Of a stretch of 14,635 nucleotides of DNA, positions 8,961 to 14,617 are shown one piece after another. Numbering within the stretch: the stretch's first letter is position 1; every line of letters starts with the position of its first letter. The translations under genes were made by a program, and so were the position numbers. Origin of the DNA: Porphyrobacter sp. UBA7686 (lineage in GTDB: Bacteria > Pseudomonadota > Alphaproteobacteria > Sphingomonadales > Sphingomonadaceae); NCBI GenBank assembly GCA_002482865.1, contig DLGU01000210.1:1-14635 (forward strand), written 5' to 3'. The notes beneath the pieces are model-generated. The model searched no databases. It worked only from the letters and a program-made list of their open reading frames with translations, and had not been told where the DNA came from.

Positions 8961-8999
8961 CACCCGTCGCCCCGTGCTTGACACGGGGCTTGGCTTTTA
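8961..8999 (+). repeat. family 2 REP-like palindrome, copy D (left flank of the GIY-YIG gene)
   Basis: CCCCGTG (8970-8976), loop CTTGA, CACGGGG (8982-8988), preceded by CCGTCG and followed by CTTGGCTTTT. It begins 6 bases after the response regulator stop. The inverted partner is copy E at the other end of the GIY-YIG gene. Confidence 0.9.
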
Positions 9000-9029
9000 T
9001 TCGCTCCAATAATCTGCAATATCAGTCGT

Positions 9030-9342
9030 ATGGCGAAGGGCGGCTGGGTCTACATCATGGCGAACCGCTATCGCAGCGGGGATGTATGTCGGTGTCACCG
9101 CTGATGCGATCGGGCGCGTTTACCAGCACCGCGAGGGTTCGGGGTCCCGCCACGTTGCAGATTTCGCGAAGACGCGGCTGGTCTATGTCGAGCACCACGA
9201 CACAATCGAGGGCGCTATCGCCCGCGAAAAGCTGGTCAAGAAATGGCGCCGCGAATGGAAATTCGCGCTGATTGAGGCGGATAATCCCGATTGGAATGAT
9301 CTGTGGGATCAGTGGTTCGCGCCCCGCGCACCAGAAGATTAG
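9030..9342 (+). pseudogene. GIY-YIG family endonuclease, interrupted by a one-base frameshift
   Basis: Two frames together encode a complete small GIY-YIG nuclease of the COG2827/YhbQ type. From ATG 9030 the frame reads KGGWVYIMANRYRSG, carrying the GIY strand (VYIM). From 9082 another frame reads MYVGVTADAIGRVYQHREGS, carrying the YIG strand (YVG) and the catalytic Arg. It continues through AIAREKLVKKWRREWK, with the metal-binding Glu and the family's Lys/Arg helix, to DWNDLWDQWF. One extra G in the run GGGG at 9078-9081 separates them; deleting one G restores a protein of about 103 residues. Translation from ATG 9082 alone would make 86 residues without the GIY strand. It could be a decayed gene, a slippage-controlled gene or a sequencing error in a homopolymer. 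It lies between inverted repeat copies D and E, and its stop codon touches E. Confidence 0.8.
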
Positions 9343-9374
9343 CCAAGCCCCGTGTCAAGCACGGGGCGACGGGT
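9342..9374 (-). repeat. family 2 REP-like palindrome, copy E (right flank of the GIY-YIG gene)
   Basis: CCCCGTG (9348-9354), loop TCAAG, CACGGGG (9360-9366), then CGACGGG. This is the reverse complement of copy D, including the GCCAAG/CTTGGC flank. The GIY-YIG TAG (9340-9342) overlaps its first base. Confidence 0.9.
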
Positions 9375-9394: not shown

Positions 9395-9427
9395 CGTCGC
9401 CTCGGACTTGATCCGGGGCTTGGCTTT
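9395..9427 (+). repeat. family 2 REP-like palindrome, variant copy F
   Basis: CGTCGC, then CTCGGA, loop CTTGA, TCCGGGG, then CTTGGCTTT. Flanks and loop match copy D, but the inner stem is GGA/TCC instead of GTG/CAC, so pairing is kept by compensating changes with one T-G wobble. Confidence 0.8.
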
Positions 9428-9473: not shown

Positions 9474-9478
9474 AAGCA

Positions 9479-9507
9479 GGCCCCCGTGTCACGCACGGGG
9501 CGACGCG
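9479..9507 (-). repeat. family 2 REP-like palindrome, copy G
   Basis: CCCCGTG (9482-9488), loop TCACG, CACGGGG (9494-9500), followed by CGACG. It is inverted relative to copy F. The loop differs by one base from copy E, and the GCCAAG flank is degenerate (GCAGGC). Confidence 0.8.
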
Positions 9508-10923: not shown

Positions 10924-10953
10924 ATTGTATCCGTTCGCCCTGACATTGTCGAA
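10924..10953 (-). promoter_or_regulatory. possible era promoter inside a family 1 repeat
   Basis: Read on the minus strand, TACAAT (plus 10924-10929) resembles a -10 box and TTCGAC (plus 10948-10953) a weak -35, spaced 18 bases. The -35 part is the conserved repeat core. Transcription would begin within a few bases of the era ATG. Confidence 0.25.
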
Positions 10954-10960
10954 GGGCTGT
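10931..10960 (+). repeat. family 1 short repeat, copy C
   Basis: CCGTTCGCCCTGACATTGTC then GAAGGGCTGT. GCCCT (10937-10941) pairs with AGGGC (10953-10957). It matches copies A and B in the CCGTTC start and TTGTCGA core, with a third stem sequence that still pairs. Confidence 0.7.
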
Positions 10961-14258: not shown

Positions 14259-14295
14259 TCCGTCGCCCCGTGCTTGACACGGGGTTAGGCTTTTT
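14259..14295 (+). repeat. family 2 REP-like palindrome, copy H, possible pgi terminator
   Basis: CCCCGTG (14266-14272), loop CTTGA, CACGGGG (14278-14284), then TTAGGCTTTTT. The T-run at 14291-14295 lies 6 bases beyond the stem. It begins 12 bases after the pgi stop and may act as a terminator in this orientation. Confidence 0.85.
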
Positions 14296-14320: not shown

Positions 14321-14351
14321 GCAGCCAAGCCCCGTGTCAAGCACGGGGTGA
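14321..14351 (-). repeat. family 2 REP-like palindrome, copy I
   Basis: GCCAAG, CCCCGTG (14330-14336), loop TCAAG, CACGGGG (14342-14348), then TGACG. It is the inverted partner of copy H, 25 bases away. Confidence 0.85.
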
Positions 14352-14617
14352 CGATGATTAGTGGCCTCGGGGCATCGCGTATTCGATTGACTTTTATCGA
14401 GCCTGCGCCCATCTGGCGCCCATCGAAGCGCGCTAGCCATGCGTGAAGCGGCGGAAATCTGAAAACATCCGCCCCGGCCGCACTTCGGTTCTACCTCCAA
14501 GACTTCCCTTTTCACGCGGGCGGTTTCAACCCCCGCGCCGCGCGTGGCGTGCCCATTGGCGATACCCGTCAGAGGCAGCCCAGCGCGCGTCGCAGACTAT
14601 TTGCGAGCTTATTTCAT
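14352..14617. other. intergenic stretch without a supported gene
   Basis: About 266 bp after the repeat pair. I find no credible protein or tRNA. GCGCC (14405-14409) pairs with GGCGC (14415-14419), and GCGGG with CCCGC near 14516-14536, so it could be a structured leader for the gene that may start at 14618. Open frames here lack any recognisable features. Confidence 0.4.

Follow-up and report, generated by a model that had tools for sequence, protein, structure and literature searches.

In a 14,635-nucleotide stretch of DNA from Porphyrobacter sp. UBA7686 (contig DLGU01000210.1; here referred to as the window), positions 8962 to 9374 probably represent one copy of a compact, mobile-like unit in which a small gene for a GIY-YIG nuclease is accompanied by its cognate hairpins. 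The unit resembles the REPtrons formed by repetitive extragenic palindromic (REP) sequences and REP-associated tyrosine transposases (RAYT), with an enzyme of unrelated fold. This reading is built on the bracketing of such genes by inverted repeats, the pairing of nuclease subtype with repeat, units that end at their palindromes without target duplication, the presence or absence of the unit within a conserved gene pair, and a few gene remnants. Loci and genomes are identified by our own labels (L and G, respectively); G000 is the genome that contains the window, and L005 is the window unit.

The unit in the window

The preliminary description of this DNA had noted a GIY-YIG gene framed by inverted palindromes, D and E, and this was confirmed. 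The palindrome CCCCGTG-CTTGA-CACGGGG lies at 8970 to 8988 and its reverse copy at 9348 to 9366, within inverted arms of 41 nucleotides (nt) each (8962 to 9002 and 9334 to 9374) that are 93% complementary. The pattern CCCCGTG-N(3-9)-CACGGGG had five matches in the window and none in 200 dinucleotide shuffles of it. Folded as single-stranded DNA, the window repeat has the tag CGTC at its outer end, an 8-bp stem with GC pairs at its base, a 5-nt loop, and the tail TTGGCT.

The nuclease gene begins with an ATG at 9030 and ends with a TAG at 9340 to 9342, which E overlaps. The core of D lies 41 nt from the ATG, rather than the 42 bp given earlier, and the reading frame is additionally broken between approximately 9072 and 9082, the parts that start at 9030 and 9082 being in different frames. 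The part from 9082 to 9342 matches the GIY-YIG profile PF01541 (E value, 6.8e-9). Aligned separately with the intact homologue L092, the two parts are 93% and 71% identical to it. The window copy of the unit is probably dead, with intact relatives in two other genera.

The window gene belongs to a group of proteins designated clade A. Across 31 clade A proteins, Y18, G20, R28, H32, and E65 are invariant together with other residues, and these are GIY-YIG catalytic columns. A tree of 88 short proteins separates clade A with support of 99/99 and places the window gene in a group with L092 and L281 with support of 94/96; many other forks in the tree are open and its bootstrap had not settled, and our conclusions use this split and this group only. 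The AlphaFold2 prediction for the protein of G051 (pLDDT, 88.6; pTM, 0.79) resembles GIY-YIG structures, and the nearest solved relative by sequence is 1zg2 (E value, 1.5e-11). No NCBIfam model scored above its cut-off for the nuclease, and the similarity to TIGR01453 was weak and below the cut-off.

Bracketing of small GIY-YIG genes

GIY-YIG matches were found in 59 of the 60 Sphingomonadales genomes, among the matches listed, with at least nine in G051. The bracketing score of a gene was the best ungapped inverted match between the 300 nt upstream and the 400 nt downstream, and genes scoring at least 14 were considered bracketed; the counts vary with the threshold chosen. A first survey covered 94 short genes. 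It took in 60 of the 66 listed short GIY-YIG matches that had no locus (the gene of G054, studied subsequently as L281, was one of the other six), left out two rows with frames of about 500 codons, and included four loci (L028, L036, L038, and L039) that were misplaced near contig ends. Bracketing was found in 41 of 50 clade A genes, 15 of 18 genes of a second clade (clade B), 2 of 6 unassigned genes, and none of the 20 genes of three other classes together. Among the controls, 5 of 192 small genes of the same loci, 15 of 1,022 random positions, and 0 of 20 UvrC genes reached the threshold, and at least one of the five bracketed control genes (L069) directly adjoins a GIY-YIG gene.

The result was similar when genes were placed by profile and clades were assigned by the tree. 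This set comprised 88 of 95 rows, those with stops, short matches, or short flanks having been dropped. Bracketing was found in 41 of 51 clade A rows (40 of 50 genes) and 15 of 18 clade B rows. In contrast to these clades, relatives assigned by motif to UPF0213-like or other small GIY-YIG classes were unbracketed, both in Sphingomonadales (0 of 18) and in other loci (0 of 15 UPF0213-like genes). For clade A and B rows versus the other small GIY-YIG rows of Sphingomonadales, P was approximately 1e-10 by Fisher's test, which ignores kinship. L055 is the same copy as L044 in this set, so that one clade A gene was counted twice, and L281 was excluded because it had been picked via the palindrome. 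L044 and L055 (G024:C5, 159053 and 159631) are also recorded as adjacent clade A unit copies with the same orientation that share 98% identity over 589 nt.

Clade A genes in other Pseudomonadota were bracketed in 44 of 60 cases (seven duplicate loci having been left out) and outgroup genes in none of three. Outside Sphingomonadales, five of eight clade B loci were bracketed (L327, L330, L331, L333, and L335, but not L329, L332, or L334). Named loci from a genome collection, the best 80 of at least 543 relatives of one query and therefore skewed to close ones, were bracketed in 49 of 74 usable cases, versus 4 of 104 small genes and 3 of 1,089 random positions; the other 6 of the 80 lay too near contig ends. 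L198, the same gene as L131, is included in this count and excluded from the homology, target-duplication, and correlation sets below. By title, the 49 bracketed loci include Pseudomonadota, deltaproteobacterial groups, Nitrospira and its relatives, Nitrospinota, Planctomycetota, Omnitrophota, Parcubacteria, and UBP14. Thus, the expectation that inverted flanking would be more frequent at GIY-YIG genes than at other small genes was borne out for two clades, whether the comparison was with neighboring genes, UvrC genes, or other small GIY-YIG genes. The layout, which the preliminary description discussed for sphingomonads and for one palindrome, also occurs in other bacterial groups and with other repeats.

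A common kind of arm among the named loci is CGTCATTCC...GGAATCCAG, and other clade A arms, unlike those of the window type, read ATTCC...GGAATCCAG. CGTC or TGTC was present near the outer end in 91 of the 117 clade A units with an arm score of at least 18 and was absent from 26. The CGTC-tagged repeats that were tested form stable hairpins; the single clade B repeat that was folded was weak (-3.7 kcal/mol; z, -0.45). The clade A genes L167, L172, and L192 in G212 and L177 in G113 lie between terminal arms that are very long (scores of 64 to 71). G212 has at least eight clade A matches, and the homology of L167 and L172 extends some way past the arms.

Pairing of nuclease subtype and repeat

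In 15 genomes with two or more such genes, the upstream and downstream flanks of one gene matched each other in 49 of 58 cases, and the upstream flank matched the downstream flank of a sister gene in 15 of 188 comparisons. The loci for this comparison were listed by hand, 60 in total with 58 from genomes that have at least two, and the list excluded the misplaced loci, L055, L103, and L105. The own flank was the best match for 45 of the 49 genes. Similarity between proteins was also correlated with similarity between repeats, with a Spearman coefficient of 0.56 for 91 units with clear tagged arms (the highest of 999 permutations was 0.23) and 0.38 for the 31 units from Sphingomonadales (highest of 999 permutations, 0.20).

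The window palindrome provides a specific example. It was found in 3 of the 60 genomes, G000 (13 occurrences), G051 (40 occurrences), and G054 (3 occurrences), which represent three genera, and was not found in G012, a genome of the same genus as G000 and one of the 60 searched. In G000, G051, and G054 alike, a nuclease gene of one and the same subtype lies between two copies of it. All three palindromes of G054 accompany the gene, two around an intact copy and the third beside a remnant of the 3' part of the gene. A different arrangement was seen at L375 (G051:C1:354714-355964), where four window palindromes in the same direction recur every 276 to 279 nt with another palindromic repeat between them, as a tandem array and not as inverted doublets.

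Genome G000 (2.6 Mb, 71% complete) was searched for further GIY-YIG genes with the PF01541 profile. All five genes found have an inverted repeat pair near their ends, and the five repeats differ: those at L001 and L002 are of the type CCGTTCG..., and those at L003, L004, and the window unit are CGTC-tagged hairpins. At L001, L002, L003, L019, and L052 the downstream repeat is translated in frame as the C terminus of the nuclease (for example, PSTSSG or DPGSSPG), and the type of repeat therefore marks the nuclease tail.

Unit ends, target sites, and remnants

DNA homology among the window unit and its relatives amounts to 81% over 414 nt for L005 and L281 (G054), 77% over 438 nt for L005 and L092 (G051), and 78% over 425 nt for L092 and L281. 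It ends no more than 8 nt from the outer ends of the palindromes and does not continue into the flanks. For many other pairs of units, homology has this same end point; some of these pairs, such as L201 or L202 with L247 and L252, span different named phyla. In 64 of 205 pairs with arms on both members, homology ended within 15 nt of the outer arm ends of the query on both sides. Outside the tags, direct repeats of at least 4 nt were absent from all 69 units analyzed (0.2 expected), and the base preceding the tag was a pyrimidine in 59 of the 69.

In G012 the gene order around the window unit is kept and the unit is absent; the stretch between the two genes is too diverged to align. At the site of the unit in G054, 15 of 19 relatives retain both flanking genes, 14 with approximately 50 to 300 nt between the matches and one with approximately 875 nt. 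None of these 15 has a match to the unit, and only the gene pair is conserved, the base-exact junction having been lost. G054 itself carries another repeat at the unit site. Near the G054 unit (L281, 1303-1429) lies a palindromic repeat of another kind, about 127 nt long, which has matches at many sites in G054 and in its relatives.

Repeat copies without a gene

In G000, the window palindrome forms seven pairs of neighbors at distances below 400 nt, six of them in the same converging order. These six converging pairs are the gene unit and five doublets, with the copies of a doublet 60 to 148 nt apart. One doublet, L006, contains a piece of the 3' part of the nuclease gene, as a deletion derivative would. 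The idea that every doublet arose from the gene unit by internal deletion was retained only in part, because remnants were found only in L006 and beside one palindrome of G054.

The window contains a clean doublet and, just 3' of the unit, two copies that would make a further, partly degenerate doublet (Table 1). It also contains, at 2658 to 2750, an inverted pair of another repeat type, CCGTTC...CTTGTCGAAGGG / CTTCGACAAGCTCAG...GAACGG, with 42-nt arms 9 nt apart. This pair resembles the flanking repeat of the clade B gene L001, and there is an extra copy at 10930 to 10960 (pairs I3 and I13).

Table 1. Positions of the nuclease gene and of copies of the window repeat in the window
Feature	Position	Strand	Basis or remarks
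Left terminal repeat D (outer tag CGTC at 8965-8968, 8-bp stem, CTTGA loop, inner tail)	8962..8995	+	Single-stranded DNA fold, -10.8 kcal/mol; z, -4.1
GIY-YIG nuclease gene, clade A, frameshifted	9030..9342	+	PF01541; groups with L092 and L281 in tree
Right terminal repeat E (copy of D in inverted orientation), overlaps stop codon	9341..9374	-	Single-stranded DNA fold, -11.1 kcal/mol; z, -4.3
Degenerate copy of window repeat	9395..9425	+	Family D4, 72% over 39 nt; 84% complementary to E (pair I10)
Reverse copy of window repeat	9475..9505	-	Window pattern and repeat search
REP doublet without gene, left half, window repeat family	14261..14291	+	Pair I8
REP doublet without gene, right half, 31 nt between halves, window repeat family	14323..14353	-	Pair I8; clean doublet

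Relation to known systems

Excerpts from the 2013 article of Di Nocera et al. (PMC3733652) state that REPs of the CGTC superfamily apparently lack a dedicated transposase. The repeats are described there as having a CGTC or TGTC tag, an 8-bp stem, and a 5-nt loop, and as forming pairs in opposite orientation; almost all have AT pairs at the base of the stem and most have a CCA tail. The window repeat is like this superfamily in its CGTC tag, 8-bp stem, and 5-nt loop (the ranges for the superfamily are 8 to 9 bp and 4 to 5 nt). Unlike most members, the window type has neither the CCA tail nor AT pairs at the stem base.

In REPtrons, which comprise RAYT (TnpAREP) genes, GTAG REPs, and REPINs, a small enzyme gene is bordered by inverted cognate palindromes that also occur elsewhere in the genome, and enzyme and repeat co-evolve, as far as these systems are described in excerpts of two articles (PMC8266576 and PMC3733652). 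The layout of the unit is the same. However, its enzyme is a GIY-YIG protein (PF01541) and not a HUH Y1 protein, and its repeat carries the tag CGTC and not GTAG. The unit is REPtron-like, yet it is not a member of the RAYT systems, because neither the HUH enzyme nor the GTAG tag, both of which were looked for, is present. The Y1 domain (PF01797) had a match in 17 of the 60 genomes but none in the three with the window palindrome, G000 (71% complete), G051, and G054; other enzymes were not searched for. RAYT is therefore not likely to be the mobilizer of the window repeat in these genomes and was rejected as a candidate. Like insertion sequences and miniature inverted-repeat transposable elements, the units have terminal inverted repeats, but they differ from such elements in lacking a target-site duplication (0 of 69).

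No article linking GIY-YIG genes to REP or CGTC repeats was among the matches listed in a literature search of titles and the starts of abstracts, mostly of open-access articles. A study from 2025 (Nat Commun) reportedly found that small GIY-YIG nucleases, termed Ssn, cut single-stranded cognate multicopy repeats (NTS), first in Neisseria, and their role is said to be in transformation, modulating DNA uptake. We know of no bracketed unit with defined ends from that study. Priority for the link between enzyme and repeat may belong to it.

Proposed mechanism and alternatives

We propose that a unit of approximately 410 nt, consisting of a CGTC-tagged hairpin, the small GIY-YIG nuclease gene, and an inverted CGTC-tagged hairpin, would be mobilized by its own product. 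The nuclease would recognize its hairpin as a single strand and cleave it, in the simplest case next to the CGTC tag, and the freed ends would then be inserted or copied by host replication or repair. The same nuclease may act in trans on gene-less hairpin pairs (REP doublets), and each nuclease subtype would thereby keep its own repeat family. Because gene subtype and hairpin go together, the nuclease very likely recognizes the hairpin, and the ending of unit homology at the tag suggests that cutting takes place there. Both the hairpins and the absence of target duplication suggest single-stranded DNA, a feature that would be shared with RAYT systems.

Several observations weigh against this proposal. 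Hairpin recognition, cutting, and movement are steps that we infer from sequence patterns. Some clade A genes are below the bracketing threshold (10 of 51 rows in Sphingomonadales, 16 of 60 in other Pseudomonadota, and 25 of 74 named loci, the share outside the order being one-quarter to one-third), and many of the named loci are from metagenome bins. Four of the 49 genes with matching flanks (L037, L060, L098, and L104) match the flank of a sister gene better than their own; in each case a sister gene carries a repeat of the same kind. Pairs with exact ends are a minority of the 205, the others stopping short or running on, and three run for more than 900 nt, one of which is the same copy taken twice. 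Gene remnants were found in only one of the five G000 doublets and in none of 17 stretches from G051. The structural match is modest, the best being to the UPF0213 protein 1zg2 (Foldseek E value, 2e-3). The earlier suggestion that gene and repeats form a unit is supported by homology that ends at the palindromes, but a base-exact empty site was not found in G012 or in the relatives of G054.

The alternative that survives best is that nuclease and repeats are a resident system that does not serve movement, in which the repeats are sites of cutting or protection, for example to modulate DNA uptake, and the flanking copies regulate or mark the gene. We consider this possible, although less probable than not, and it is compatible with the mobile-unit explanation. 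The pairing of gene and repeat fits a resident system, and in Neisseria the CGTC-1 repeats are the known dRS3 repeats, according to an excerpt of PMC3733652. Against a resident system stand the homology that ends at the palindromes, also between phyla, the absence of the unit between the conserved gene pair in the relatives of G054, and the nuclease genes that are broken, among them the gene in the window.

It is also conceivable, but unlikely, that the nuclease gene is a homing-type passenger that entered existing REP doublets, with the repeats being spread by other means. The GIY-YIG fold is classically associated with homing endonucleases, the weak sub-cut-off similarity to TIGR01453 is in the same direction, and in both G000 and G051 the window type has more gene-less doublets than gene units. 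A passenger would be expected to sit in any doublet, whereas gene subtype and repeat type go together. Insertion would also be expected to split one target rather than to leave two whole inverted copies, and the Y1 searches in G000 (incomplete), G051, and G054, the only enzyme searches made, gave no match for another spreading enzyme.

A role of the palindromes as transcription terminators or mRNA stabilizers of the small gene, for which the stable CGTC-tagged hairpins next to the gene ends would be suited, may exist as a side effect; as the explanation of the layout it is very unlikely, because it leaves the subtype-repeat pairing, the upstream copies, the doublets elsewhere, and the ends of homology unexplained, and because the clade B repeat that was folded is weak. 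Chance, or the ordinary placement of REPs, which are mostly downstream of and between genes according to excerpts of PMC3733652, does produce bracketing at some random positions, but it is hardly credible here given the low rates in small genes, UvrC genes, other small GIY-YIG genes, and the named-locus controls and given flanks that match each other and not those of sister genes.

Significance

Judging from genome comparisons, the best candidate for the dedicated enzyme that CGTC repeats were reported to lack is the small GIY-YIG nuclease. A broader proposal, which we regard as evenly balanced, is that they are the mobilizing enzymes both of CGTC REPs and of a second, less palindromic class of repeats associated with clade B. 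If so, nucleases and repeats would constitute a transposon-like kind of element, with loci from eight named bacterial groups in this analysis, that relies on a GIY-YIG nuclease where other elements use a HUH or DDE transposase, and the gene-less doublets would be its miniature derivatives.

Some prokaryotic genomes contain REPs in high copy number, and the CGTC superfamily was reported, in the excerpts of PMC3733652, without a dedicated transposase. A specific candidate with cognate pairing opens the question to direct testing, for which a protein of about 100 residues and an oligonucleotide of 31 nt would be used. Small GIY-YIG genes, of which some genomes have several, would also gain a likely substrate that can be read from the adjoining DNA.
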